Shown here piece after piece: positions 2,755 to 18,155 of a stretch of DNA of 64,000 nt. Position numbers and translations under genes: made by a program. The notes below the pieces were generated by a model. It did not search any database and had not been told where the DNA came from. It was given only the letters and a program-made list of their open reading frames with translations. The stretch's first letter is position 1; every line of letters starts with the position of its first letter. The stretch is from Treponema sp. Its GTDB lineage: Bacteria > Spirochaetota > Spirochaetia > Treponematales > Treponemataceae. The stretch covers positions 1-64,000 of the forward strand of contig JAIKYZ010000008.1 of assembly GCA_024682655.1 (NCBI GenBank), read 5' to 3'.

Positions 2755-4161
2755 ATGAATAAAAAGTATGGAAAAATAACAGCCTTATTTATAAGCCTTC
2801 TGTTATTAATAGGATTTACGGCCTGTAATAATGCCGTTACATCTATAGTGCCTCTTGTAAGTACAGAAACTAGTGGAAATGATGAAACTAGTGGAAATGG
2901 TGAGACTAGTGAAACTCCGACAGAAAGCAAAACTCTTTCTAGTATTTCGGTAAGTGGGACTCCAAGTAAAACTGTCTATCTTTCAGGAGAAAGTTTTGAT
3001 TCTTCAGGTATTACAGTAACAGCAACATATTCAGATGAAAGTACAGAAACAGTAACTACATATACAAATGATTTAGGTACTGATATTTGTTATAACGGAA
3101 AAACTCTTACATTGAGCTATACTTATAATTCAGTAACAAAAACAGCAAGTCTTACAGGACCATTCTACATTGCTGCTTCCGATGCCCTTACACAGACAGT
3201 AATTGCTAACGGAACTAAGACTATTACAGTTTCTGAAAATGGAGCGAATGTAGAAAGAACTTATGATTTAGTAAAATTCGGAGACTTCCCACAGACAATT
3301 GCCGCAAGTGGAATAACTTATTCTTCATCAACAGTTTACAACGGCTGGTATCTGGGGTCTGATGGATATTTTTATGAAGAGTGTTCTGCTAATCCATATC
3401 AATCTTCATATACATTTTCTAATAATGTAACAATAGCAAGTGGAACTACATATTACTTTAAGGTCCAGCCAATTGTATGGCGTGTATTAACAAGTGACTA
3501 TAATTCAACCGGTAAAAAACTCCTTCTTGTAGAAAAAATCCTTACAGCAAATGTGCCTTATTACGGTTCAACCACAAACCGAACTTTGACAGTAAATGGA
3601 GTAGAGACCACAATTTATGCAAATAACTACAAGTATTCAAACATCCGAGCCTACTTAAATGGAACTAAGAAGCAGTATGTAACAGATGGAGGAACTTCAA
3701 ATGATTATACAATTGACTGGTCAGATAAGGGCTTCTTACAAAAGGCCTTTACAACAAGTGCACAAGCTCTTATTCCTACAACAAGTGTAGATAACTCAGC
3801 TGCAAGTACAAATCCAGATGGAAATTCAACATTATGGAATAGCGGAACAAACGATTATGCCTGTGATAACACCAGCGATAAGATTTTCCTCTTAAGTGAG
3901 CAAGAAGTAACAACAAGCTCCTATGGTTTTGCAGCATATGACGAAGAAGATTCTAATAGAATAAGACAAGCAACCGATTATGCCAATGCAAACACAAGTG
4001 GGGCAGGTCAAAACACTGGTTATTGGTGGCTCCGCTCTCCTTACTATGATGATTGTGCTGTAGTGAGATATACCGATCTTTATGGTCCGGCCAGTTATCA
4101 ATGCAGTGTCTATGATAGAGAAAGTGGCGTATGTCCAGCTTTGTGCATTTCATTTGAATGA
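2755..4161 (+). CDS. surface lipoprotein with Ig-like and DUF6273-type C-terminal domain
   Basis: A 468-residue lipoprotein: signal peptide with lipobox FTAC, a Ser/Thr/Gly/Glu-rich linker with TSGN/TSGE repeats (residues 36-60), a bacterial Ig-like domain (about 62-140, SISVSGTPSKTVYLSGESF), and a long C-terminal domain with PIVWRVL, KLLLVEKIL, KIFLLSEQE, WWLRSP and GVCPALCIS. These match the order of motifs in DUF6273 proteins, a C-type-lectin-like group. The Shine-Dalgarno GGAGGA is at 2744-2749. The last 45 residues are rich in Tyr, Asp, Cys and Ser, and the family's usual Arg in GVRPAL is Cys here. The role is probably surface binding; the ligand is unknown. Confidence 0.7.
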   Translation: MNKKYGKITALFISLLLLIGFTACNNAVTSIVPLVSTETSGNDETSGNGETSETPTESKTLSSISVSGTPSKTVYLSGESFDSSGITVTATYSDESTETVTTYTNDLGTDICYNGKTLTLSYTYNSVTKTASLTGPFYIAASDALTQTVIANGTKTITVSENGANVERTYDLVKFGDFPQTIAASGITYSSSTVYNGWYLGSDGYFYEECSANPYQSSYTFSNNVTIASGTTYYFKVQPIVWRVLTSDYNSTGKKLLLVEKILTANVPYYGSTTNRTLTVNGVETTIYANNYKYSNIRAYLNGTKKQYVTDGGTSNDYTIDWSDKGFLQKAFTTSAQALIPTTSVDNSAASTNPDGNSTLWNSGTNDYACDNTSDKIFLLSEQEVTTSSYGFAAYDEEDSNRIRQATDYANANTSGAGQNTGYWWLRSPYYDDCAVVRYTDLYGPASYQCSVYDRESGVCPALCISFE

Positions 4162-4381: not shown

Positions 4382-4888
4382 ATGTCAGAAGAGATTTTAT
4401 CTTTAATAAAAAATAGTTCTCGAAATAATGTTGAAGAAGCAAAACGTGATAAAAAGGCTGTTTGGTTAATTTTTACAATCGGTAATCAGGCTGATGGTAA
4501 AAATCTTTATGCTATTCCTGCTGATTCTGTTAAAGAAATTTTACGTGATGCAACTGTATTTCCACTTCCTTTTGTGCCTCCCTATGTGAACGGTGTTTTA
4601 AATCGTTATGGAGATCCTTATCTTGTAATTGATTCTGCTGTGCTTGAAGGAAAAGAAGCTCAAAATTCTCTTCTCTTTATTGTTCTAAATGATGAAAGTC
4701 ATTCCTGTCTTCGTATAACTGATGTAAAAGATTTTTTTACTGCTTCTGAAAAAGATGTTGTTCATTTTACCGAGGCTGAACTTTCTGATTATTATGAAGG
4801 TACTCTAAAAATTAATGGCCAGGAAGTTTTTGTTTTAAAAGTTCAGGCCATTATTGAGAAAGTAGGAAAAGAAATTGCGTCAGCCTGA
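4382..4888 (+). CDS. cheW: CheW-like chemosensory coupling protein
   Basis: A 168-residue soluble protein with a CheW domain at about residues 23-160: AVWLIFTIGNQADGKNLYAIPADSVKEIL, a PFVPPYVNGVLNRYGDPYLVID core, and a C-terminal VFVLKVQAIIEKV strand-helix. CheW proteins link receptors to the CheA kinase. It is the first gene of a long co-directional chemosensory cluster and overlaps the next gene. The start lies 8 nt after a TATAAT box, so the message is probably leaderless. Confidence 0.8.
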   Translation: MSEEILSLIKNSSRNNVEEAKRDKKAVWLIFTIGNQADGKNLYAIPADSVKEILRDATVFPLPFVPPYVNGVLNRYGDPYLVIDSAVLEGKEAQNSLLFIVLNDESHSCLRITDVKDFFTASEKDVVHFTEAELSDYYEGTLKINGQEVFVLKVQAIIEKVGKEIASA

Positions 4889-5306
4889 AAGATTTGTTTG
4901 TATTACTTATCCTCAAATAGATTTTCTCATCCCAAATGATTATGTCATTTCCTGTGTAGGTGTTAAAGATTTGGACATAAGTTTACTTCATGACCAGAAT
5001 TCGGGTGTTTTTGATTTTGATGATATTGCCAGTGAATTTAATCAAAGTCCAAGGCAATCGGATATTAAAACTATGATTGTATTAAAAGGCCAGAATATTA
5101 AAAATCTTTCCATTGTTACTACTCAAGAGTGCAGGGTTTCTACTATTCCTCTCACAGATTTTGGTTTATTTTCCGACGCCTATTCTTATGCTTTTGAAAA
5201 CATTGGTATTTTGGCCTGTAATTTTCTTGATGGCCGCCTTAGACTTTTAATAAATGTAAAAAATATTATTGATTATATGAATAATTCTTTACTGGAGGAA
5301 ATATGA
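4875..5306 (+). CDS. second, divergent CheW-like protein
   Basis: A 143-residue protein starting at TTG (4875), with AGGA at 4864-4867, and overlapping the upstream stop codon. The pattern FVCITYPQIDFLIPNDYVISCV and the closing LLINVKNIIDYMN resemble the edge strands and last helix of CheW, but the middle is poorly conserved. Position between cheW and cheB and tight overlaps on both sides support a role as an alternative coupling or scaffold protein. It could also be a lineage-specific protein with only a CheW-like fold. Confidence 0.5.
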   Translation: MRQPERFVCITYPQIDFLIPNDYVISCVGVKDLDISLLHDQNSGVFDFDDIASEFNQSPRQSDIKTMIVLKGQNIKNLSIVTTQECRVSTIPLTDFGLFSDAYSYAFENIGILACNFLDGRLRLLINVKNIIDYMNNSLLEEI

Positions 5307-6370
5307 TTTCGGTCCTTCTTGCTGATTCTTCCGCAGTAAATCGTTCTCTTCTTAAAGAAATTATTCTTAAGTCCGAAAAACTTTCTTGTCTGGGGGAAGC
5401 TGCCTCTTACTCTGAACTAAAAGCTCTTTCTAACCGCTTAAAACCAAATGTAATTATTGCCGATAAATCTATTTTTGATTCCGAAAGGGCTTCTTCTTTT
5501 TCAGAATATTGTAACAATTCAGAAATCCCCACTTTAATTTTTATAAGTCAGGGAGAAAAAAATTATTATTCTTCTAAAAATATTAAATTTATCGAAAAAC
5601 CAAAATTAATTACTTTTTCTTCTGAAAAACTCGACGAATATTCAAAGGGCCTCTGTCAAATCCTAATGGACTTAAAATGTAATCTTCTTTTAGAAAATCA
5701 TCCTAATTCTCTTTATTCAACGGTAAAAGAAGACGGCAGTCTGGTAAATCCAATTCCAAGCCTTTCTAAAGATTTTTCTAACCGTAAATATAAGGCTGTT
5801 CTGGTTGGAGTTTCTACCGGTGGTCCAGGGGCTCTTCTGGAATTTTTAAAGGGTATTGGGCAAAATTTCCCTCTACCAATTTTTATTACCCAGCACATAG
5901 ATTCATTTTTTGACAAAAATCTTATCAACTGGCTTTCAAAAGAGGCAAAGCTTCCTGTTCATCTTGCAGAAAATAATGCTAAGGCTCTGCCAGGTCATGT
6001 TTATTTTGCGCCGTCAGATCAGCATCTTACTTTTATTCCTTATCCGGAAGATGATTTTCATATGATTTTAAATCATGATGCTCCTGTAAATTTTTTACGT
6101 CCCGCCGTTGATAAAATGTTCGAAAGCGCGGCCAAAGTTTTAGGTCAAAATTGTATTGCAGTTATTCTTACCGGAATGGGGGCCGACGGTTCTAAAGAGT
6201 GTCTTCATTTAAAAAAACTTGGGGCCTATACAATCACTCAGGATAAGGATTCTTCTGTAATTTACGGTATGCCAAAAGCGGCTTTTGAAATTGGTGCTTC
6301 TTGTGAGGTACTTTCTCTTAATCAAATTCCAGAAAGGCTTTGGTCTTTAGTTGGAGCTAATAGGAGTTAA
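5303..6370 (+). CDS. cheB: chemotaxis response regulator protein-glutamate methylesterase CheB
   Basis: A 355-residue two-domain protein. The N-terminal receiver (residues 1-120) keeps D7, the phosphoacceptor D54 (IIADKS) and K99, but has only one of the usual two acidic residues after strand 1. The C-terminal methylesterase (about 163-350) has the catalytic triad: S171 in GVSTGG, H198 in TQHID and D295 in GMGADG. It removes methyl groups from receptor glutamates to reset adaptation. It overlaps the CheW-like gene upstream by 4 bp and is followed by cheR. Confidence 0.92.
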   Translation: MISVLLADSSAVNRSLLKEIILKSEKLSCLGEAASYSELKALSNRLKPNVIIADKSIFDSERASSFSEYCNNSEIPTLIFISQGEKNYYSSKNIKFIEKPKLITFSSEKLDEYSKGLCQILMDLKCNLLLENHPNSLYSTVKEDGSLVNPIPSLSKDFSNRKYKAVLVGVSTGGPGALLEFLKGIGQNFPLPIFITQHIDSFFDKNLINWLSKEAKLPVHLAENNAKALPGHVYFAPSDQHLTFIPYPEDDFHMILNHDAPVNFLRPAVDKMFESAAKVLGQNCIAVILTGMGADGSKECLHLKKLGAYTITQDKDSSVIYGMPKAAFEIGASCEVLSLNQIPERLWSLVGANRS

Positions 6371-6373
6371 AAG

Positions 6374-7771
6374 GTGGAGAGAGTTAACGAAGAGCTTATT
6401 GAATACGTAAAATCTAAAATCCTCACTTTTTCTGGAATTAATCTTGCCCAGTCCCAGTACGATTCTTTAATCAAACATCTGGAAAAAAATGCATCTAAAA
6501 GAAAACTTTCTCCTATGGAATTCTGTAAGTCTTTAAGCCCAAATACTCCGGATTTTGATTCAATCATTAATCTTGTTACTGTAAACGAAACTTATTTTTT
6601 CCGTGAAGAAAAACAATTTGATTTCTTAAAAGAAGAAGTTTTTCCTAAATATATTGGCAGATCTCTTACAATCTGGTCAGCTTCTTGTTCTACTGGCGAA
6701 GAAGTTCTTTCCCTGCTGGCTTTAGCTCTTTCTATGAATATTAATATTACAATCTATGCCTCAGATATTGATGATAATGCACTTAAAACTCTTTCAAAGG
6801 GCATCTATCCTCAATATTCTTTACGCCCAGATGGTAAAAAATATCATTCTCTATTGCAGCCTTATTCTAAAATTACCCCTACAGAAATTACTTTTAAGAA
6901 AGATTTTATAAATCGCATTCACAGTTTTAAATTCAATCTTATCCAGGGGCAAATATCTTCTCTGCCTTTTTACGAAAACGTAGATATTATTTTTATGCGC
7001 AATGTTTTTATCTACTTCGATAAAGAAACAAGAAAATTAGTTTGCAGCAAAGTAACCCAGAGATTGAAAAATGACGGTTTGTTGTTTTTCTCTATGAATG
7101 AAATTGGCTCAATCGATAACAGCATAATTCCAAATTATTTATGTAAACTTAATAAGGGTTGTGTTTATTATTTTGTAAAAGGAATTTCAAAAGATAAATC
7201 AAATTCAAAGGGCAGAAGTATAGAAGAACGCCTGGAAGAAAAGAAAAATCAGATAAAAAATAAAAAACTAAAAGAAGAAGTAGAAAAGGTAAAATTACAT
7301 AAATATATAGAAGAAAAAGACCTTTCTAGAGCTGCAAATAATTCAAATCCTTCAAATTCCGGGGATTTTGATGCAAAGAAAACTTATGAAAGCATCTGCC
7401 AGGAAATTAATCGTGGTAATTTTGATAAGGCCCGAGAAATTGTTACTTCAATAAATGGAAGTCAATATAAAAAATATTCTTTCTTTATGCAGGGATATAT
7501 TGAATATCATGCCGACAACAGGGGAGATGCAGAAACTTTATTTTCTTCTGCAGTTAGTATTTCTCCTGATTTCTGGCCGGCAATTTTTTACCATGGGATA
7601 GTTCTTCGTGATATGGGGAAAAATCAAAAGGCTCTGGAATGTTTTTCAAAGTGTAAAGATATTATTTCTTCCTACCCAAGTAATTTGCCTTATGATTTTG
7701 CTTTGGATTCTTTTAGTCCATCTTACATTTATTCACTTTGCGAAACTTTTTCTAATTTAGGAGGGCACTAG
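6374..7771 (+). CDS. cheR: CheR methyltransferase with C-terminal TPR region
   Basis: A 465-residue protein starting at GTG with AGGAG at 6362-6366. The first 270 residues are CheR: VNETYFFRE (70-78), the SAM-binding loop ASCSTGEEVLSLLALA (103-118), SDIDDNAL, and MRNVFIYF (208-215). It methylates receptor glutamates. A Lys/Glu-rich linker (about 275-320) leads to a TPR-like helical region (about 340-465). CheR-TPR fusions are typical of Frz-like or alternative chemosensory systems, where the TPR controls substrate choice. The stop overlaps the GTG of the next gene (TAGTG). Confidence 0.88.
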   Translation: MERVNEELIEYVKSKILTFSGINLAQSQYDSLIKHLEKNASKRKLSPMEFCKSLSPNTPDFDSIINLVTVNETYFFREEKQFDFLKEEVFPKYIGRSLTIWSASCSTGEEVLSLLALALSMNINITIYASDIDDNALKTLSKGIYPQYSLRPDGKKYHSLLQPYSKITPTEITFKKDFINRIHSFKFNLIQGQISSLPFYENVDIIFMRNVFIYFDKETRKLVCSKVTQRLKNDGLLFFSMNEIGSIDNSIIPNYLCKLNKGCVYYFVKGISKDKSNSKGRSIEERLEEKKNQIKNKKLKEEVEKVKLHKYIEEKDLSRAANNSNPSNSGDFDAKKTYESICQEINRGNFDKAREIVTSINGSQYKKYSFFMQGYIEYHADNRGDAETLFSSAVSISPDFWPAIFYHGIVLRDMGKNQKALECFSKCKDIISSYPSNLPYDFALDSFSPSYIYSLCETFSNLGGH

Positions 7772-9861
7772 TGAATCTTGATAAAAATCTTTTCATTGCA
7801 GATTACATTTCTGAAGCTCGCGAAATACTTGATTCTCTTGATGAATTGGCAATGGCCGCCACAAAAGAAAAGGGAAACAGCAAGTATCTAAAAGAAATTT
7901 TACGTCTTTTACATACCTTAAAGGGTTCTTCCCGCATGCTGGAATTTCTTCAAATAGAAAAAGTTGTGAATCATTTGGAGACCGTCTGCAAAAGTATACA
8001 GGGTAACAGAAGTGAAATCTCAAATAAGATAGTTCAGCTTTTAATGGGAGTGGATGAAATCCTCAGAAAGACTTTAGATTCCATAGAAAAAGGTTCTGAC
8101 GGTAATTTCCCCGAATATCAGGAAATTATTGAAAATATTGATAAGGCCCTTGAAGACGATTCATTTAAAACTGATTTTTCGGGTAAAGAAGAGAGTGATA
8201 ATTCTGAAAAAGATGAAGAAAAAGTTTCTCAGGATAATTCAGAATTTTTCCACGATTCCCAGACAATTAAGATTCAGATTTCCCAGGTAGATTCAATTTT
8301 ACAATCGCTGGATAAACTCATAATGAGGCAAATTAAACTCAAAAATGAGATAGATTCCCTAAAAAAACAGAGTGAAAGTGCCGGTTTTCAGGCCTTTCAG
8401 GAAATCTCAGAAAATATTTCCGTACTCGAAAATCAAAGTGTAGATATTCAGAAAAATATTATTGCTCTTAGAATGCTGCCTTTTGATATGATTTTACGGC
8501 CAATAAAACGTTCTATTGTTTCAGAAGCCTTAAAAGTTGGCAAAAATATTGATTTTGATATTCCTCAGTCCGAAATCACAATTGACAAATTCATTTTGGA
8601 AAAACTTCCTGCAATTTTAATTCACCTGGTTCGCAATTCAATTGACCACGGAATTGAAACTAAGGAAGAAAGATTAAAACTTGGTAAAAGTGAAAATGGA
8701 AAAATCTCGGTTTCTATAAGTCAGGTTTCCAATAGAATTTTTATTAATGTAAAAGATGATGGTCATGGAATTGATTATGAAAAAATCAAAGCAAAGGCCC
8801 TAAAAGTCTTTCCCGAAAAAGAAAACGAAATCCTTTCTGCCGATAAAAATGATTTACTTCAATTTATATTTGCGGCTGGTTTTTCTACAAAAGAACAGCA
8901 GACAGAACTTTCGGGCCGGGGAATAGGTCTTGATGTTGTCCGTAGCGAAATGGATAAACTTAAGGGTAAAATTACAGTCTATTCCGAAGTAAATCAGGGA
9001 ACAAATTTTGAACTTTCTCTGCCGGCTTCTCTTGCAACTCAGGATGGTTTATTTGTTTCGGTTTCGGATAATTCTTATTTGATTCTTTCCCACTATATAA
9101 AAGAAATTCTTACAGTTAAAAAATCGGATTTTCTTGAAATGCAGCATGGACCGGTAATAAATGTTCATGACGAACTGGTTCCTATTTTTGATTTTGATAT
9201 TATTAATCCAAATTCTCAAAAACATACCAATACAAAGAGTGAATTATCAATCGTCATCCTTGAATATTTGAATCGTAAGATTGGAGTTATTGTAGATAAG
9301 ATTTTACATTATGGTACTGTTGTTATTAAACCGGTACCTCCAATTTTAAAAGATTTTAATGCCCTGCAGGGACTTGTTTTTGACGAAAATTATAGAATTA
9401 TTCCAGTTCTTAATATTCCAGATACAATTCGCCGTTTTAGAGTTGTTAATGTTTATGATATTAAAAATCTGGAAGTTCGAAAAATGCCAAAAATTCACTC
9501 GGTTCTTGTTGTTGATGATTCCCATACAACTCGTCATATTGAACAGATTATTCTTGAAGCAGAAAACTACAATGTTTCGACAGCGGTAGATGGAATTGAT
9601 GCCCTTGAAAAAATGAAGGAACATAAATTTGATCTTGTTGTAACCGATGTTAAGATGCCTAGAATGGATGGTTTTGTTCTTCTGCATAATATGCGCCATA
9701 AGGAAGAACTTAAAAATATTCCTGTAATTATGGTTTCTTCTGTCTTTGAAGGGGATACTTTAGAAAAAGCAAAAAATCTTGGAGCCCAGGGCTATATCGT
9801 AAAATCTGATTTTGAAAGAGAAAATCTTACCGCCAAGGTAAAGGAGTTGCTGCATGACTAA
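7771..9861 (+). CDS. cheA: hybrid CheA histidine kinase with C-terminal receiver
   Basis: A 696-residue hybrid kinase starting at GTG with TTAGGAGG upstream. Order: HPt domain with phosphorylatable H48 in LLHTLKGSSR; acidic linker; dimerisation helices (about 165-235); ATPase domain with HLVRNSIDHGIE, DDGHGID and GRGIGLDVV; CheW-like regulatory domain; and a receiver (about 570-696) with VVDDSH, phosphoacceptor Asp in TDVKMP, VSS and VKSD. The canonical P2 CheY-binding domain is not evident. A CheA-receiver fusion without a free CheY resembles Myxococcus FrzE. The receiver may act as the output or as a phosphate sink. Confidence 0.9.
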   Translation: MNLDKNLFIADYISEAREILDSLDELAMAATKEKGNSKYLKEILRLLHTLKGSSRMLEFLQIEKVVNHLETVCKSIQGNRSEISNKIVQLLMGVDEILRKTLDSIEKGSDGNFPEYQEIIENIDKALEDDSFKTDFSGKEESDNSEKDEEKVSQDNSEFFHDSQTIKIQISQVDSILQSLDKLIMRQIKLKNEIDSLKKQSESAGFQAFQEISENISVLENQSVDIQKNIIALRMLPFDMILRPIKRSIVSEALKVGKNIDFDIPQSEITIDKFILEKLPAILIHLVRNSIDHGIETKEERLKLGKSENGKISVSISQVSNRIFINVKDDGHGIDYEKIKAKALKVFPEKENEILSADKNDLLQFIFAAGFSTKEQQTELSGRGIGLDVVRSEMDKLKGKITVYSEVNQGTNFELSLPASLATQDGLFVSVSDNSYLILSHYIKEILTVKKSDFLEMQHGPVINVHDELVPIFDFDIINPNSQKHTNTKSELSIVILEYLNRKIGVIVDKILHYGTVVIKPVPPILKDFNALQGLVFDENYRIIPVLNIPDTIRRFRVVNVYDIKNLEVRKMPKIHSVLVVDDSHTTRHIEQIILEAENYNVSTAVDGIDALEKMKEHKFDLVVTDVKMPRMDGFVLLHNMRHKEELKNIPVIMVSSVFEGDTLEKAKNLGAQGYIVKSDFERENLTAKVKELLHD

Positions 9862-11755
9862 AAATGACAAGCCTTTAATTTACCTTGCTCAAAGTTCAAA
9901 AGTACTGGCTAAAATTATTTCCTCCAGCCTGGAAAAACTTAACTACCAGGTTCAGATTTTTACCGACGGTTTTTCACTTTTAAAGAGTCTTCTAAAAGAA
10001 AGTCCAAATCTTATTATTGCCGATAAAAATCTTGAAAAAATTGACGGTCTTGAACTGTGCTCAATCTTAAAAAAGGGTTCTTCCAAAGCAGATATTCCTT
10101 TTATTTTGATTACAAGCGAAGACAAGGTTTATGATTTTTGGAATGATTCTTATCTGGCCAATGAAGCACTTTCAATTACAAGTCAAAATCTGGATTTACT
10201 TCTTTCTCAGGTGGAAGATTTATTAAAATATAAAAATCTGCCAATTAATACTTTTATCCAAGTTGAGGAAGAGGAAAAATCAAAGGAAATTAAAGTTTCT
10301 GAAGAAGAAAAACTTACCGGCTGGCTTGTAAATTCAATGGAAAAATCTTCCTACTATCTTAATATTTCTCAAAATCTCATGAAACTTTATCAGGATGTCA
10401 GAGATTTAGATATGCTGGTTGGAAATCTTTTCCGTCTTTTATACAGGGCTTGTGAATACGATATGATTACCCTGATTTTAGATGGTCAGAATGCAAAAGT
10501 TTACAAAACAGGAATTGAATATTTTGACCAGGCTACAATCGATGAATTCTGGAATATTTGTAAAACAGAATATGAACAAGAAGCAAAGAAGAATCACACA
10601 ATCAGATATGAAGAAAAATCTTTTATTCAGATTGTAAATACTTTTGACCAGGCCGACAGCGAAATTTCTTCCAAAAATGATTCAAAATCCCAGAATAAAA
10701 AACTTGAATCTTATCAGGCTTACACAATTAAAAATGGCAATGAATTTGTAGGAACTTTACATCTTACTTCCCGACGAAAAAAAATCTTTAACTACAAAAT
10801 TCAATCTTCAATTGATTATATTTTACCTTCTCTTGCTAATCTTTTGCAGGAAGCTGTCCAGCGTTCAGAATTAATTGAAAAAGAATCTAAAATCAGAAAA
10901 GCCTTTTCTAAATTTGTTCCAGAACAGGTAATTAATGATTTTTTGGATTCAGATGGAAACAGTGAGGCAAAAAATAGTAACGAAAAGCGAAATGTCGTAA
11001 TTTTGATGAGTGATATAAGAAGTTTTACTTCCATAAGTGAAGTAAACCGCCCGGAAGATGTCGTAAATTTCTTAAATAATTATTTTACCCGCATGGTTGA
11101 TATTGTAAAAAAATATGGGGGCACGGTTGATAAATTTATTGGAGATGCAATTATGGTTTTGTTTGGTGCTCCAATCAGTTACAACGATAATGCCAAGCGT
11201 GCGGTTATGGCTGCAATTGAAATGTATGCTCAGCTGGAATCAATTCCCTGTGGTCAGTTAAAATTTCCAGAGGGGGTAAAACTGGATGTTGGAATTGGAA
11301 TTCATTATGGAGATGTAATTGTAGGTCAAATTGGTAGTACAGATAAAACTTCTTACACAGTTATTGGCGACACTGTAAATCTTGCTTCCAGACTTGAAGG
11401 TCTTACAAAACTCTACGGAGCAAAAATTATAATTTCTCAGGCGGTAAATGATGAACTTGATGATTCAATGAACATTCTTCTGCTTGATTCTGTAAAGGTA
11501 AAAGGAAAAAAGGAAAGTGTTTTAATTTACAGGGCAGACGAAAAAGCTCTGCCAAAGAAATTTACTCAGGCCTATGAAAAAGGATTTAAATCTTACAACG
11601 AAGGAGCATTCACTCTTGCAATCCCTTATTTTGAAAAGGCTCTTGAAATATTGCCTAATGATAAGGCCGCAAAGTTGATGCTGGAACGTTGTAATGAATT
11701 TGCTATAAATAAACCAGAAAATTGGGATGGCGCTGTTGCGCTTACTTCAAAATAA
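9854..11755 (+). CDS. class III adenylate cyclase with degenerate receiver and GAF-like region
   Basis: A 633-residue protein. Residues 1-120 form a receiver-like domain that keeps the acceptor Asp (IIADKN) but lacks the paired acids after strand 1 (YLAQSS). A GAF-like middle region follows. The class III cyclase domain (about 370-550) has metal-binding Asp residues in MSDIRSFT and KFIGDAIMVLFG, and YTVIGDTVNLASRL for substrate and transition-state contacts; the Lys and Thr favour ATP. A short TPR-like tail closes it. It makes cAMP. The gene overlaps cheA by 8 bp, so it is translationally coupled and probably an output of that kinase. Confidence 0.88.
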   Translation: MTKNDKPLIYLAQSSKVLAKIISSSLEKLNYQVQIFTDGFSLLKSLLKESPNLIIADKNLEKIDGLELCSILKKGSSKADIPFILITSEDKVYDFWNDSYLANEALSITSQNLDLLLSQVEDLLKYKNLPINTFIQVEEEEKSKEIKVSEEEKLTGWLVNSMEKSSYYLNISQNLMKLYQDVRDLDMLVGNLFRLLYRACEYDMITLILDGQNAKVYKTGIEYFDQATIDEFWNICKTEYEQEAKKNHTIRYEEKSFIQIVNTFDQADSEISSKNDSKSQNKKLESYQAYTIKNGNEFVGTLHLTSRRKKIFNYKIQSSIDYILPSLANLLQEAVQRSELIEKESKIRKAFSKFVPEQVINDFLDSDGNSEAKNSNEKRNVVILMSDIRSFTSISEVNRPEDVVNFLNNYFTRMVDIVKKYGGTVDKFIGDAIMVLFGAPISYNDNAKRAVMAAIEMYAQLESIPCGQLKFPEGVKLDVGIGIHYGDVIVGQIGSTDKTSYTVIGDTVNLASRLEGLTKLYGAKIIISQAVNDELDDSMNILLLDSVKVKGKKESVLIYRADEKALPKKFTQAYEKGFKSYNEGAFTLAIPYFEKALEILPNDKAAKLMLERCNEFAINKPENWDGAVALTSK

Positions 11756-11767
11756 AAAGGAGTGGAT

Positions 11768-13606
11768 ATGAGTTTTAAGGAGAAACTTGCTAAAAAGAAG
11801 ACTGCTTCTAATAAGGACATAAATTTTGGAAAAGAGGTTTTTAGAAAACTCGTAGTTTCCAATATTTTATTTACAATAGTTACTTTAGCAGCCTGTATTG
11901 CTATTGCTTATGGAAATGTTCTTTTTCTTGATTTGCCAAATATTATAGTTTTAGGGCTTATTATTTGTATTGGGCTTCATGTTCTTGTTTTAGGAATTAT
12001 GAATCAATTAGCTTCCCAGTCAATTACAGAAGATTTAACTTCCTTTTATTATTATGATTCAACGGTAAAAGAAAGAACTAAATTGATGAAGCAGCTTATG
12101 GGAATGCCAGCTAGAATTGGAGCCCTGTCTTTTACAATTTTTATTGGCTGCGGAATTATCTGGATTTCCTTTTTTACTAAAATTTCCAGTTTGAATTTAT
12201 CCACTGTGATTTTAGTTTCCTGCCTTATGTTTGTTGGAGCTTATTTTTCTGCCGTAAATGCAATAACCGAAATTACCCAGAAGATTTGTTCCCGCCACGC
12301 CTCAAATATTGTAGAAAAGGGTGTTTCTAAAGAAGAAGTTGAAAAAAATCACACTTTTGGAATGACTTCTACCGTTATTACCATTCTCCACATTTTTGCG
12401 CCAATCATATTATTTAGTTTAATTTTTTATATTCTGGCCTGGAGAACTTACGCTTCTTACTCAGCCGAAAAAGTAGATTTTTTCAGACTTATTTTAATTG
12501 GAATCATCGCAATTACTTCCTACAATTATTTTTCAACCATTTTATTCAAGAGAATGATGCGTTCAATTAATAACATGAAAGATTTAATGTCTGGAATTAA
12601 TAAGGAAAATCTCCATAAAGTAAAATTTGAAAAGACAGACCTTTCAAATGAGTTTATGTACAACGTTTATCTTATCAACACAATTGTAGAAATTCTTCAG
12701 AAAATCTTAAAGGAAAGTCAGAGAATTTCTATGTCGGTAATTGAATCAAGTAATGAACTTTCGGTTATTTCAAGGGAAACCGCAGTTACTTCTTTGGAAC
12801 AGAATTCTGGTGTAAAAGAACTGCTTTCTGCCATGGAAGAATCTGATGCCCTTTCTAAAAATATTTCGGAAAAAATTGGCGAAGTTTCTCTGGTAGCAAA
12901 AAGAACAACTGATAATATAAACGAAGGTTTTGGTATTCTTAAAGAAAATATGCAGAAACTTGATGAAATTAAAAGGGCAAATGATGTTACTGTGGATGGA
13001 ATCAAAGAATTAACAGAGAAAGTTTCTGGTATTTCAGATATAGCAAGAATCATTAATTCTATTGCCGACCAGACAAATATTATTGCTTTTAATGCTGAAC
13101 TTGAAGCTTCCAGTGCCGGAGATGTAGGCGAAAATTTCTCTCTGGTAGCTAACGAAATCAGACGTCTTACAAATTCAACAATTCAATCAACCGAGGAAAT
13201 TAGAAAACGAATCATAGAAATTCAACATTCTTCTGATGAATTGCTGCTTTCTTCTCAAAATGGAAGTAAAAAGATTCTGGACGGAAATCAGATTATTAAT
13301 GATTTGAATCACCGTTTTGAAGAACTTAAAGAATCTTCTGAGTCAATGAATTATGCTTCGGAAGATATTAAAAATATCATAGAACAACAAACCGCTTCTT
13401 TTGCTCAAATTGTAATTACTTTACGCCAGATTGCAGAAGCAGCCGAAACTTTCTCTGGTTCTACCCAGAAGATTTCAGATTCCGCTCAAAATCTTTGCTT
13501 AATCTCAGATAATCTTAAAAATCTTCAGCCAAAAGAAGTACTGGAAGAAAATGAATCAGAAAAGCAGGAACTTCAAGAAGAATATTCAAATAGTGAGGTG
13601 CAATAA
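11768..13606 (+). CDS. methyl-accepting chemotaxis-type receptor, six membrane segments, copy 1
   Basis: A 612-residue protein. The start is set at the ATG at 11768, since AGGAG (11758-11762) runs into an alternative GTG at 11762. About six hydrophobic segments fill residues 35-270, with almost no periplasmic loops, so it probably senses within the membrane. The C-terminal signalling domain contains IINSIADQTNIIAFNAELEA followed by SSAGDVGENFSLVANEIRRL, a recognisable MCP hairpin tip that differs from the consensus NAAIEAARAGE. It is followed by a paralogue with a TAATG overlap. Both probably feed the CheA encoded upstream. Confidence 0.85.
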   Translation: MSFKEKLAKKKTASNKDINFGKEVFRKLVVSNILFTIVTLAACIAIAYGNVLFLDLPNIIVLGLIICIGLHVLVLGIMNQLASQSITEDLTSFYYYDSTVKERTKLMKQLMGMPARIGALSFTIFIGCGIIWISFFTKISSLNLSTVILVSCLMFVGAYFSAVNAITEITQKICSRHASNIVEKGVSKEEVEKNHTFGMTSTVITILHIFAPIILFSLIFYILAWRTYASYSAEKVDFFRLILIGIIAITSYNYFSTILFKRMMRSINNMKDLMSGINKENLHKVKFEKTDLSNEFMYNVYLINTIVEILQKILKESQRISMSVIESSNELSVISRETAVTSLEQNSGVKELLSAMEESDALSKNISEKIGEVSLVAKRTTDNINEGFGILKENMQKLDEIKRANDVTVDGIKELTEKVSGISDIARIINSIADQTNIIAFNAELEASSAGDVGENFSLVANEIRRLTNSTIQSTEEIRKRIIEIQHSSDELLLSSQNGSKKILDGNQIINDLNHRFEELKESSESMNYASEDIKNIIEQQTASFAQIVITLRQIAEAAETFSGSTQKISDSAQNLCLISDNLKNLQPKEVLEENESEKQELQEEYSNSEVQ

Positions 13607-15402
13607 TGAAAGACAGTCAGAAAAACTTATCATTAGAAAGTAAACTCTTTAAAGCAAGTCATATTCCAGATATAGCCTGTGGTATTATTCTGCTTTTATA
13701 TACAGTTTTTATTTTAAACCTTAAAATTTCAACTCACTATATTTTAATTTTAATTGTAATTGCTGGTGTTCTTTTTGCTCAATTCTGTTTATCTTCAATT
13801 ACTAATCACTTTTTAATGAGCAAAACTTCAAAACTTATCGAAAAGTGGGAGAGTGAAGAAACAAGTCTAGAAGAAAGGACAAAAATATTTCTTTCTTTAC
13901 ATAAATTACCAAAAAGAAAATCTTTAGAAGCCTTTACTTACTTCTTTATCTGTTCAATTCTGCTTGGACTTGCTTATCATTTTATCTACAAGGTAAATAT
14001 CAGCATAAACTTAGTCAGTGTTTTTTCTTGTTTTCTTGGCTCTTATGTGGCTGGACTTCTGGCTTTAGCAAATTCAAGTTCAATTTGTAATGAATATGCC
14101 TGCAAATTAGTTGAATCTGGAATAGACACTAAGATTTTAAATAAAAGAACTAATTTTGGTCTTTCTTACAAGAGTACCTTTACCTTTTATTGTACAGTTC
14201 CTGTTGTCTGGGGCTTTTTACTTGCAATGGGACTTTTCTACGTTTATTACTATAACAATGTAATTTCAAGTTCTGGTACAGGTTTTCTTCCTGCTGATTA
14301 TTATGGAAAGGGCCTTAGAAAAATTCAGCTTTCCCGTCTGGCAGTTGTAATTGCAATTAATGCCATGGTTGGAATTGCTTCTGTTTATTCTTTCTTAAAA
14401 AGTATCTTAGTTTCTTCTAAAAAACTTCAGGATTCTATGCTTCATATAATTAAAAATGATATTTTTACTGTAAAATTGGTACCAACTGATTTTGAATCGG
14501 AAGTTTCTTACAATCTCTACCTTATAAACCAGATTGTAATTTTGTTCAGGTCTATTCTGAATGACATTCATGAAATTGGCGATACAATGATTGAACCAAT
14601 GGAAGGCCTTTCCGAAATTGCCCAGTCCACTGCTTCAACTTCTCTGGAGCAATCAACAGGGGTAAAAGAAATTCTCGCTACAATGGAAGATACCGACCGC
14701 CAAACCCGAAATATCGTAGATAAAATTGCTGATGTAACAACTGTGGCAGAAGGTACAGAAAATAATGTAAATGCCGGTTTTGAAACTTTACAGTTTAATC
14801 TTGATAAAATGTCCGAAATTACAGAGGCTAATATTTCAACAATTACTGGTATTCGTGCTCTGGGAGAAAAAATTGGAAGTATTTGGGAAATTGTAAAAAT
14901 TATTAATGATATTGCCGACCAGACTAGAATTATTGCCTTTAATGCCGAACTGGAAGCTTCTTCTGCAGGGGACAGCGGTAAAAATTTCCATATTGTTGCA
15001 AATGAAGTTCGCCGCCTGGCTGCCGGAATTACAAATTCAGTAGATCAGATTAAGGAAAGAATTACAGAAATTCAACATTCATCCGATAACTTAATAATAA
15101 CTTCGGAAAGTGGAACAGAGAAGATTCGCGAAGGTCTTGACCTTTCTGAAAAACTCAAAGAAAAATTTGATGATATTCAATCTTCTTCAGAAATTACTGT
15201 GGAATCTGCAAATCAAATTAAAGAAATAATTAATCAGCAGTCTACAGCTTTTGATCAGATTGTTGCTACTGTACGTCAGATTTCTTCTGGTATTGAGAAC
15301 TTTTCTACTTCGACAAGTACTGTTAATAATACTGCACAGAAACTTAAGGAAGCTGCAAATCTTCTGGAAAATTTGCATGTAAGTATTATTGCGCAGGAAT
15401 AA
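13606..15402 (+). CDS. methyl-accepting chemotaxis-type receptor, six membrane segments, copy 2
   Basis: A 598-residue paralogue of the preceding receptor with the same layout: about six membrane helices within residues 20-275, then a coiled-coil signalling domain with IINDIADQTRIIAFNAELEA and SSAGDSGKNFHIVANEVRRL. Its ATG overlaps the previous stop (TAATG). The two receptors may form heterodimers or share an array. As in copy 1, there is no sizeable periplasmic sensor domain. Glutamine/glutamate pairs in the helices are possible CheR/CheB targets, but I cannot place them firmly. Confidence 0.85.
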   Translation: MKDSQKNLSLESKLFKASHIPDIACGIILLLYTVFILNLKISTHYILILIVIAGVLFAQFCLSSITNHFLMSKTSKLIEKWESEETSLEERTKIFLSLHKLPKRKSLEAFTYFFICSILLGLAYHFIYKVNISINLVSVFSCFLGSYVAGLLALANSSSICNEYACKLVESGIDTKILNKRTNFGLSYKSTFTFYCTVPVVWGFLLAMGLFYVYYYNNVISSSGTGFLPADYYGKGLRKIQLSRLAVVIAINAMVGIASVYSFLKSILVSSKKLQDSMLHIIKNDIFTVKLVPTDFESEVSYNLYLINQIVILFRSILNDIHEIGDTMIEPMEGLSEIAQSTASTSLEQSTGVKEILATMEDTDRQTRNIVDKIADVTTVAEGTENNVNAGFETLQFNLDKMSEITEANISTITGIRALGEKIGSIWEIVKIINDIADQTRIIAFNAELEASSAGDSGKNFHIVANEVRRLAAGITNSVDQIKERITEIQHSSDNLIITSESGTEKIREGLDLSEKLKEKFDDIQSSSEITVESANQIKEIINQQSTAFDQIVATVRQISSGIENFSTSTSTVNNTAQKLKEAANLLENLHVSIIAQE

Positions 15403-15446
15403 GGAATAGAATAAGAATCCTGATTGAATAAGGAGTTTTCTGCTCA

Positions 15447-17219
15447 ATGAAAAAGAAATATGTGGTTTATGATACTTTTATTAGTCTCTATTGCCTCTTA
15501 ATTGTTTTATGGGTTGTCGCTGTTTTGATAAAAGCTTACCGCGCTCCCGGAAATCAAATATTGTATCGTGCACCTGCATATTTTGATTGTAGCGCTGGCT
15601 GGTATGACGACCGGGGTAATATCCTTGATATTGATGATTTGACTTTTAGTAAGTCTGAAGTAGGAAAAGAAAGAATTCTTCATTATCAAATTCCAAGTGA
15701 CTATAATCTTTGTGAAAATCAAGCTATATGTTTTTTTAGCCGGGGAATGGATTTTGATGTATATGCTCAATCTTTTAATTGTAATTCTTCTGATTCAGAA
15801 AATTTTAATAGATTTGAGCCCAGAAAGATTTATGAATTCAGGCAAAATGCAGCTCGTCTTTCAGGAGAAGATATTGGACTTACAGCTCAGATTGTTCCAC
15901 TTCACTGCAGCGACAAGGAAAGTGAAATTACCTTGGTAATAACTCCCGCTGAATATTCTGCCTTTATTCTTGATATGAGAATTCAAAAATCTACAGATTT
16001 TCTCTTAAGTGTTTTAAGGCCAAGACTTTCTCTCTTTGTTGCTTCTTTAGTTATTTTCTTTTTTGGTATAGCTATTCTTGTATATACATTTTTTGCAATT
16101 AAAAGAGAAAGAGAAGGAAAAATTGCAATGTATGCCTGGGGCCTTTTTTCTTTGATTATTGGTACAATGCTTGTAATCCAAAGTCAGGTATTACAAATAC
16201 TTACAGGAAAACCCGAATTCTTTACTACATTAAAATATGCCCTGGCTCTTCTTTTGTGTTTCCCTCTGTCGGTTCTTATTGATTATATTCCCAGGGTAGG
16301 TCATAAACATTTTTCTTTTGCAATTGGAATTATTGTCGCTCTGCTTATGGTTTTTGAAACTGCGGGAAATTTCTTTATGAATATTTCTTTTTACCGATTA
16401 TTTTATCTTTCGGCCCTTATCATGCTTTATATTTTTGCCATGTCTATATATCTTTTGATAAGGGAATGTAGATACAGCTTAAAAAATCACAAAAAACTAA
16501 ATACGGTAGGCATGCTTTCATTAATGGTGGCACTGGAAGTTTTTGCTATTATTGATCTTTCAATTTATTATGCTTCTAAAAGGCATATGACTGACTGGGG
16601 AAGATGGCTTAGAAACGCTTATTTAGTTTATATCCTGATAGTTTTAGTTATTGCCCTTAGAATTTCAATTAAGAGAAATAAAAAAGCCCAGCTAGCCGAT
16701 AAATATAAGGCCGATTCATTAACCGATGCTATGACCGGACTTTATAATAAGGGTGCCTATATTGAGAGAGAAGAAGAATTAACTCAGAAACTTATTAAGC
16801 AAAGAGAAAAGGGTAACAATGACTTTTCTTTTGTTATTATGTCTTTAGATTTGAATAATCTTAAAAAAGTTAATGATTCTATGGGTCACGAAGCAGGAGA
16901 TATATTTATTCAAAAAGCCTCTAAACTTCTAAAAAATGCAGTTGGCGATAATGGTGAAGTTTTTAGAGTAGGCGGAGATGAATTTCTTGCTTTGATTTTT
17001 GGCAAAGATTTAGAGATAATATATGAACATATAATTAATAAATTAAATAAAGATATTGAAGATTTTAATAATAAGGAAAAATCTTTAATTCCATTGACTT
17101 TTGCTTATGGTCACGCAATTTGCCGTGCAGATCAAAATCAGTCAATCCACGATTCAGAAAGAATGGCCGATAAAGAAATGTATGCCTGTAAACATAAAAT
17201 GAAAATGGAAAGGGAATAA
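15447..17219 (+). CDS. membrane-bound diguanylate cyclase (7TM sensor plus GGDEF)
   Basis: A 590-residue protein: N-terminal helix (about 9-29), a periplasmic region to about residue 185, seven predicted helices (about 190-410, a 7TMR-DISM-like layout) and a C-terminal GGDEF domain beginning at DSLTDAMTGLYNKGAY. The active-site motif RVGGDEF is intact, and MSLDLNNLKKVNDSMGHEAGD carries the metal and base contacts, so it should make c-di-GMP. No RxxD inhibitory site is visible just upstream of GGDEF. AGGAG lies 11 nt before the ATG. It lies between the receptors and an HD-GYP gene. Confidence 0.88.
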   Translation: MKKKYVVYDTFISLYCLLIVLWVVAVLIKAYRAPGNQILYRAPAYFDCSAGWYDDRGNILDIDDLTFSKSEVGKERILHYQIPSDYNLCENQAICFFSRGMDFDVYAQSFNCNSSDSENFNRFEPRKIYEFRQNAARLSGEDIGLTAQIVPLHCSDKESEITLVITPAEYSAFILDMRIQKSTDFLLSVLRPRLSLFVASLVIFFFGIAILVYTFFAIKREREGKIAMYAWGLFSLIIGTMLVIQSQVLQILTGKPEFFTTLKYALALLLCFPLSVLIDYIPRVGHKHFSFAIGIIVALLMVFETAGNFFMNISFYRLFYLSALIMLYIFAMSIYLLIRECRYSLKNHKKLNTVGMLSLMVALEVFAIIDLSIYYASKRHMTDWGRWLRNAYLVYILIVLVIALRISIKRNKKAQLADKYKADSLTDAMTGLYNKGAYIEREEELTQKLIKQREKGNNDFSFVIMSLDLNNLKKVNDSMGHEAGDIFIQKASKLLKNAVGDNGEVFRVGGDEFLALIFGKDLEIIYEHIINKLNKDIEDFNNKEKSLIPLTFAYGHAICRADQNQSIHDSERMADKEMYACKHKMKMERE

Positions 17220-17240
17220 AATTAGAAGGGGGAAGTTTCT

Positions 17241-18155
17241 ATGAATCACAGTAATATAAGTCTTTTGATTATAATTTATTCAATGATTGGAATTGGCGTA
17301 TTGGTTATGGTTACAAATATTTACCGTTATGCCCGTTTTATGAAGATGCAGGATATTCTTTCTTCAAATAATAAAAAAGATTTCAGCTGGAAACTTACCG
17401 GACTTTTATTACTTATATTTTTCCTCTTTGGTTATATTATTATCGGATTTTTTAGTAAACCAGATTTAATGATGGCCAGTGTTCTATTTGGCGGAAGTTT
17501 CTTTGTAATGATTGTTTTGACTCTTTTGTTCCGCCTTATTGAATCAGTAAAGCAGAATTGTCTTGATGTTACAGAAGTTTTAATTTCTATAATTGAAAAA
17601 CGTGATCCAAACTTGAATGGTCACAGTAGAAATGTTCAGAATATTACAATGCTTTTTTACAGCTATCTTCCAAAAGAGATTAGAAAGCAGATTAATCCTT
17701 TAAGTCTTGAATATGCCGCCCTTATGCACGATGTAGGAAAATTAGGAATTCCAGAGGAAGTTTTAAATAAACCTGGAAAATTAACCGACGAAGAATGGGA
17801 AATTATGAAACAGCATCCAAAAATTGGAGTTAAGTTTCTTGAACCCCTGCGTAATTTTGAACATATCAAGAGCTGGATTTTATATCATCACGAAAGAGTT
17901 GACGGCAAGGGCTATTATTCACTGCCGGGCGACCAGATTCCACTGGCTGCAAAAATTATTTCCATTGCCGATGCTTATTCTGCAATTACTATGAAAAGAG
18001 TTTATAAAGATCCAAGAAGTCACGAAGCCGCAATTGAAATTTTAAAAAATGTTGCGGGTAAACAGATTGATGCTAAACTTTTTGAGATTTTCTACAAGAT
18101 TCCCCAGGAGGAATTGGAAAAATGTCTTCCTCCTGAGCTTGAAAGTAAATATTAA
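17241..18155 (+). CDS. HD-GYP-type c-di-GMP phosphodiesterase-like protein
   Basis: A 304-residue protein with about three N-terminal membrane helices (residues 8-28, 50-70, 78-98) and a C-terminal HD domain. Metal-binding residues are seen in RDPNLNGHSRNV, ALMHDVGKLGIP, KQHPKIG, YHHERVDGKGYY and IADAYSAIT. The signature Gly-Tyr-Pro is Gly-Tyr-Tyr here. The HD ligands are present, so it is probably an active hydrolase, but specificity for c-di-GMP is less certain. It follows the GGDEF gene by 21 bp with a GGGGG Shine-Dalgarno, pairing a synthase with a hydrolase at the end of the chemosensory cluster. Confidence 0.82.
   Translation: MNHSNISLLIIIYSMIGIGVLVMVTNIYRYARFMKMQDILSSNNKKDFSWKLTGLLLLIFFLFGYIIIGFFSKPDLMMASVLFGGSFFVMIVLTLLFRLIESVKQNCLDVTEVLISIIEKRDPNLNGHSRNVQNITMLFYSYLPKEIRKQINPLSLEYAALMHDVGKLGIPEEVLNKPGKLTDEEWEIMKQHPKIGVKFLEPLRNFEHIKSWILYHHERVDGKGYYSLPGDQIPLAAKIISIADAYSAITMKRVYKDPRSHEAAIEILKNVAGKQIDAKLFEIFYKIPQEELEKCLPPELESKY

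Follow-up and report, generated by a model that had tools for sequence, protein, structure and literature searches.

Gene clusters of the ACF class and the Wsp system, with its output enzyme WspR, resemble a locus that we have analyzed in Treponema sp. in having a CheR protein with a TPR (a weak candidate one in Treponema), a hybrid CheA, a multidomain output enzyme containing a receiver, and no CheY (PMC3447774), and receiver-mononucleotidyl cyclases encoded in CheR-TPR (ACF-class) clusters were noted in 2012 (PMC3447774). WspR is a receiver-diguanylate cyclase that can be phosphorylated, whereas the Treponema enzyme is predicted to make cAMP and its receiver appears to be phosphate-incompetent in the genus. 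In the Pil-Chp system of Pseudomonas aeruginosa, a chemosensory array likewise increases cAMP by way of a class III cyclase, CyaB (PMC3019171), and FimL, which resembles part of ChpA without the acceptor histidine, has been proposed as the link between the Chp array and CyaB (PMC3019171); Pil-Chp differs in that CyaB is encoded outside the chp operon, the CheY-like proteins PilG and PilH are present, and the target is type IV pili (PMC3019171). The Frz system of Myxococcus xanthus is alike in its hybrid CheA (FrzE) and its two unlike CheW proteins, FrzA and FrzB (PMC4546325). The FrzE receiver is thought to act as a phosphate sink (PMC4546325; for a general discussion, see PMC10782961), and FrzS is a non-phosphorylatable receiver whose phospho-site is absent (PMC1974792), but Frz controls reversals and includes no cyclase.

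The locus studied here is a run of ten genes in a window of 64,000 nucleotides (GenBank contig JAIKYZ010000008.1, positions 1 to 64,000). Its operon is of a kind already known, the ACF/Chp type, and is a new form of that type; the likeness to ACF rests on domain architecture and gene content, with CheA placed among its relatives only. No description of a che-linked cyclase from Treponema was found in the literature searched.

Results

A chemosensory operon without CheY

An initial annotation, made from the letters and open reading frames (ORFs), had read positions 4382 to 18155 as ten co-directional genes with frequent overlaps, and the ORFs and Pfam domains agree with that list (Table 1). All ten ORFs lie on one strand, and Pfam confirms CheW, the CheB methylesterase, CheR, CheA (Hpt, HATPase, CheW, and receiver domains), a receiver joined to a class III cyclase, two MCP signaling domains, GGDEF, and HD-GYP. 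From cheW through the second receptor gene, neighbors overlap by 14, 4, 1, 8, and 1 nt or are otherwise spaced by 2 to 6 nt; the spacing widens after the second receptor, to 44 nt before the GGDEF gene and then 21 nt before the HD-GYP gene. A chance arrangement or miscalled genes are excluded by the Pfam domains and the recurring gene order. Just upstream of the operon, positions 2755 to 4161 hold a lipoprotein-like gene with a DUF6273 domain and a weak bacterial Ig-like domain.

The TPR of CheR is a TPR_2 match (E = 2.5e-4) under the Pfam cutoff. Pfam missed the CheB receiver, whose key residues are D-S-D-I-K, the second acidic residue being absent; the S/H/D active-site motifs of the methylesterase are present in the alignment. 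The CheA receiver has D582, D583, D626, S656, and K678. The hydropathy profiles show about six hydrophobic segments in each receptor and no periplasmic domain, in keeping with the intramembrane sensing that had been proposed.

The second gene had been labeled CheW-like, a label that stands at the level of predicted fold but finds no echo in Pfam or profile matches: its product (CheWL) matches nothing in Pfam and does not resemble the first CheW by profile. Profile comparison left it undetected as a CheW, and fold comparison settled its identity. Only CheW and CheA-P5 structures matched its predicted model (pLDDT 79) above noise, with Z scores of 9 to 12 against 4 for the next unrelated fold, and the top 18 Foldseek matches were all CheW or CheA-P5. 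CheWL is accordingly predicted by its model to adopt the CheW double-barrel fold, with a putative coupling role.

As the initial annotation had stated, no single-domain receiver (CheY) is found among the ORFs or Pfam domains of positions 4382 to 18155, and Pfam reveals no FrzZ-like tandem receiver in the ten-gene run. The genome does have a cheY, on contig C112, in a separate canonical treponemal F2 operon that encodes a CheA with P2, a CheW-CheR fusion, CheX, and CheY and is like the F2 system described for T. denticola (PMC7666581); none of this F2 set occurs in the window's run. The description of the locus as an ACF-like system with a CheA-receiver hybrid is sustained by a CheA without P2, a multidomain receiver enzyme, and the lack of CheY.

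Table 1. Genes of the chemosensory run and kinase-less CheA examples from sister loci
Feature	Position	Strand	Basis or remark
CheW coupling protein, opens conserved block	4382..4888	+	Pfam CheW, E = 5e-12; block edge by synteny
Second CheW-fold protein (CheWL, predicted), TTG start	4875..5306	+	Fold match to CheW/CheA-P5, Z up to 12.4
CheB, degenerate N-terminal receiver and intact-looking methylesterase	5303..6370	+	Pfam CheB_methylest, 1e-55
CheR, weak C-terminal TPR	6374..7771	+	Pfam CheR, 5.8e-33
CheA: Hpt (His48), ATPase, CheW domain, intact C-terminal receiver; no P2	7771..9861	+	Pfam, residue alignment
REC-GAF-adenylyl cyclase-TPR (predicted), pseudo-receiver	9854..11755	+	Pfam, model, residue alignment; directly 3' of CheA
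Chemoreceptor 1 (MCP1), ~six TM segments, no periplasmic domain	11762..13606	+	Pfam MCPsignal, hydropathy
Chemoreceptor 2 (MCP2), ~six TM segments, closes conserved block	13606..15402	+	Pfam, synteny, hydropathy
Membrane GGDEF protein, neighbor outside conserved unit	15447..17219	+	No match in 117 relatives; no orthologous locus has the gene
Membrane HD-GYP protein, neighbor common only to window and nearest relative	17241..18155	+	Synteny, homologue positions
Kinase-less CheA, examples	L054:7260-8942; L189:8047-9720; L192:6468-8153; L202:6305-7990		Receiver-adenylyl cyclase directly behind

Eight genes form the conserved unit

The cyclase was searched in 197 genomes, and the surroundings of the best matches were then inspected. 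The order CheW, CheWL, CheB, CheR-TPR, CheA, cyclase, MCP1, MCP2 is complete in ten other genomes of the same genus and is interrupted by contig ends in four more; one further locus (L045) has the block without the two upstream cheW genes, and outside the block the flanking genes vary between genomes. The conserved unit is these eight genes, from cheW to the second receptor (positions 4382 to 15402), and the block is far beyond chance because its order recurs in same-genus genomes. The search for shared gene order that the initial annotation had suggested thus succeeded for the eight genes and failed for the GGDEF/HD-GYP pair. Named Treponema, among the matches listed in the contig scan, contributed more distant ones only and no strict orthologues.

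The upstream flank yielded two further observations. In the nearest relative, a 659-aa frame just upstream of cheW (L036:16591-18570, minus strand) combines a Na/Pi cotransporter with PhoU and an OmpR-type DNA-binding domain, and in two genomes the gene immediately 5' of the che block encodes a carbohydrate phosphorylase (L037:12175-14622 and L039:1-1986).

Downstream, a search of 117 relatives at E <= 1e-40 gave no match to the GGDEF protein, and no orthologous che block inspected carries a GGDEF gene behind MCP2. The HD-GYP gene stands behind the block in one orthologous locus only, that of the nearest relative, G024; HD-GYP homologues occur in 31 of 118 genomes, the window's genome included, and the close ones other than that of G024 lie on different contigs from the che loci. 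Since the window's own genome has about 28 GGDEF and 14 HD-GYP genes, such neighbors are unremarkable. Neither protein contains a receiver, and each has its own membrane parts. A motif scan gave 67 promoter-like motifs against 56 in shuffles and 5 terminator-like motifs against 9. By distribution and synteny, the two c-di-GMP genes are late arrivals beside the block, and a dual output is unsupported.

CheA and a predicted adenylyl cyclase remain paired across families

Wherever CheA and the receiver-cyclase can both be seen, in the genus and in three further families of the order, cheA immediately precedes the cyclase gene, and this adjacency is constant over the four families while other neighbors change. 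The adjacency was a result and not an effect of selection, because the loci had been picked by cyclase similarity. The proposal that cyclases form the output is well supported for the adenylyl cyclase, the conserved partner of CheA, but not for the c-di-GMP enzymes, which are unconserved neighbors.

The cyclase model (mean pLDDT 73, from a shallow alignment) has a receiver fold at residues 1 to 128, a GAF-like domain at about 150 to 351 that was assigned by topology only, a cyclase domain at 376 to 562, and TPR-like helices at 568 to 618. By alignment its catalytic set (D387, K427, D431, T502, N509, R513) is complete and provides what defines a class III adenylyl cyclase, namely, two metal-binding Asp residues, purine-specifying Lys and Thr/Asp, Asn, and Arg. 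The closest unmodified solved relative is the guanylyl cyclase Cya2, which has Glu and Gly where the window's cyclase has Lys and Thr; cAMP is therefore the predicted product, and from its adenylate-type residues we predict the enzyme to be an adenylyl cyclase. Genomes of this group encode many other class III cyclases, and several cNMP-binding domains are encoded in the window's own genome.

Receiver-cyclases also lie beside cheA or cheB in Nitrospina (L106:9488-14627) and Anabaena (L160:8711-14033), and che-linked cyclases therefore extend more widely than the spirochaetes. Sensors with a Reg_prop propeller and Y_Y_Y domain are fused to a class III cyclase rather than a kinase at L041:486-3572 and, in the window's own genome, at L069 (contig C140) and L071 (contig C104); one such gene is divergent beside a che block. 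On the contig that carries the window, but outside it, C19:103612-104151 strongly matches a class III cyclase and contains one in-frame TAA, a possible pseudogene.

Phosphorylation sites have decayed in the cyclase and CheB

Receivers were scored for the acidic pair, phospho-Asp, and Lys by alignment to CheY. Among loci of other families, 15 of 16 have all of these residues in the cyclase receiver, whereas none of the 31 loci of the window's genus, in which one genome is counted twice (L082 = L098), has the full set. For the CheB receiver the counts of complete domains are 12 of 12, then 8 of 14 among the other loci of the genus and 0 of 14 in the window's clade, and that of CheA is complete in 49 of 49. 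In the window's cyclase, Gln13-Ser14 replace the acidic pair and the Lys is absent, with Asp57 and Thr87 kept; it does not have the full set of a phospho-switched response regulator (acidic pair, phospho-Asp, Thr/Ser, and Lys), and the phosphotransfer to the cyclase receiver that had been suggested as a check is not supported. Asn stands at the phospho-Asp position of the cyclase receiver in 20 more loci of the genus, 18 of which are kinase-less. When the cyclase tree is built with the receiver columns left out, a single change accounts for the loss of the site. Measured against the nearest relative, the degenerate receiver has a dN/dS of about 0.08, a rough estimate with dS near saturation, and the pseudo-receiver would on this estimate be under purifying selection and not junk.

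A CheA without a kinase in sister loci

In 19 same-genus loci from 19 genomes (L054, L188-L192, L194-L196, and L198-L207), CheA is kinase-less: the proteins are 494 to 601 aa long, their ATPase columns are 6 to 7% filled, and Ser, Arg, Glu, Thr, Phe, or Cys occupies the phospho-His position. In the nine that were scanned, the Pfam domains are CheW and a receiver, and neither Hpt nor ATPase appears even at E <= 0.1. The kinase-less CheA proteins keep P5, and their receivers retain the acidic pair, phospho-Asp, and Lys, with Ala in place of Ser/Thr in seven (L196, L198-L201, L204, and L206). The cyclase lies directly behind with its catalytic residues intact, and the CheB receiver is mostly complete in these loci. 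Eight neighbors scanned there encode OmpA, HD, trypsin-like, or GGDEF/PAS domains or nothing. An assembly error is excluded, as the form recurs in 19 genomes with His and ATPase both gone. A split kinase of the CheA3/CheA4 type was also rejected, given that 7 of 15 kinase-less genomes checked (five of the seven more than 90% complete) have no CheA kinase other than the F2 motility one. In the cyclase tree the kinase-less loci nest among same-genus kinase-bearing loci, with two state changes and several weak branches. G024 has both CheA types (L036 and L206), and in the window's own genome the kinase type only was found.

A CheW domain and a receiver make up the architecture of CheV, and the kinase-less CheA has the same CheW domain with an intact receiver; unlike CheV, it is clearly derived from CheA, with P1-like and linker parts remaining and the cheA position before the cyclase occupied. 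CheA3/CheA4 of Rhodobacter sphaeroides offer a parallel, an array containing a CheA that lacks a functional kinase domain (PMC6829392, PMC10782961), but CheA3 retains the phospho-His and has a partner kinase, CheA4, whereas the Treponema protein has no such His and no partner kinase was found. A survey of CheA architectures in 13,673 sequences stated that the kinase domain was present in every one (PMC10782961); the kinase-less form may have been missed through the survey's own collection criteria. New here is that, around a constant CheA-cyclase pair, the phosphorylation parts appear to have been lost stepwise.

Discussion

We judge it somewhat better than an even chance that positions 4382 to 15402 encode a chemosensory-to-cAMP unit in which contact with the array or CheA, and not phosphotransfer to the cyclase, governs that enzyme. 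Membrane signals would alter the array of receptors, CheW, and CheA; CheA would autophosphorylate at His48 and pass the phosphate to its own receiver, the sole complete one in the operon; and the cyclase would bind the array or CheA through its receiver-shaped, phosphate-incompetent N-terminal domain, so that the state of CheA, be it array conformation or phospho-receiver, might set cyclase dimerization and activity. The cAMP would then reach cNMP-binding proteins, and the downstream GGDEF and HD-GYP genes would encode separate c-di-GMP enzymes. The lost phospho-site of the cyclase and the kinase-less sisters suggest signaling from array to cyclase by contact rather than phosphate, and it is from these sequence features that we infer the contact step; FrzS and FimL are precedents for this reading of the receiver-shaped domain. 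Against it, the window's cyclase retains Asp57 and Thr87, the kinase-less loci belong to relatives and not to the window's operon, and the intact receiver of CheA could serve an unrelated partner. The intact receiver of the kinase-less CheA speaks for a function of this receiver, its phosphate coming from another source.

The retained Asp57 and Thr87 would suit a classical response regulator, in which CheA phosphorylates Asp57 and thereby switches the cyclase as in WspR, and the complete receiver of the same cyclase in other families makes a phospho-switch the probable ancestral mode. Receivers with an incomplete quintet can sometimes be phosphorylated. We nevertheless regard this explanation as unlikely for the window's operon, where the acidic pair and Lys are gone; no same-genus receiver among the 31 loci is complete, the Asp itself is replaced in many, and 19 sister loci have dispensed with the kinase and kept the cyclase. 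That cyclase might instead be merely cotranscribed and answer to its own GAF-like domain or to bicarbonate, and not to the array. Its model does include a GAF-like domain, and the genomes contain numerous other class III cyclases, but the immediate adjacency to CheA over four families despite changing neighbors, and the retention of the receiver-shaped domain, make such independence quite improbable.

The simultaneous output of cAMP and c-di-GMP that the initial annotation had proposed, with the array governing both through the neighboring GGDEF and HD-GYP proteins, fares worst against the comparative data. Both genes are on the operon strand across short gaps (44 and 21 nt) with no clear terminator seen between, and such an output could hold in this one species; a GGDEF protein with no counterpart in 117 relatives and missing from all orthologous loci, an HD-GYP gene next to the block only in the window and the nearest relative, and the absence of a receiver from two proteins with membrane parts of their own render it very improbable.

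Extended to the genus, control by contact becomes a more tentative proposal, to which we give somewhat less than even weight: arrays in this Treponema genus would regulate an adenylyl cyclase through direct contact, the output receiving no phosphate; the cyclase phospho-site would have been lost first, and CheA of the sister branch would then have lost His and ATPase to become a CheV-like scaffold in an array without its own kinase. Chemosensory arrays are understood as machines that control a kinase. The loci form a natural series, from full phosphorelay parts in related families through a phospho-dead cyclase receiver in the genus to a kinase-less CheA in the sister loci, and the CheA-cyclase pairing persists through the whole of it, which makes allosteric-contact signaling by an array directly testable. 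Many uncultured Treponema would thereby gain a cAMP-linked sensing system.
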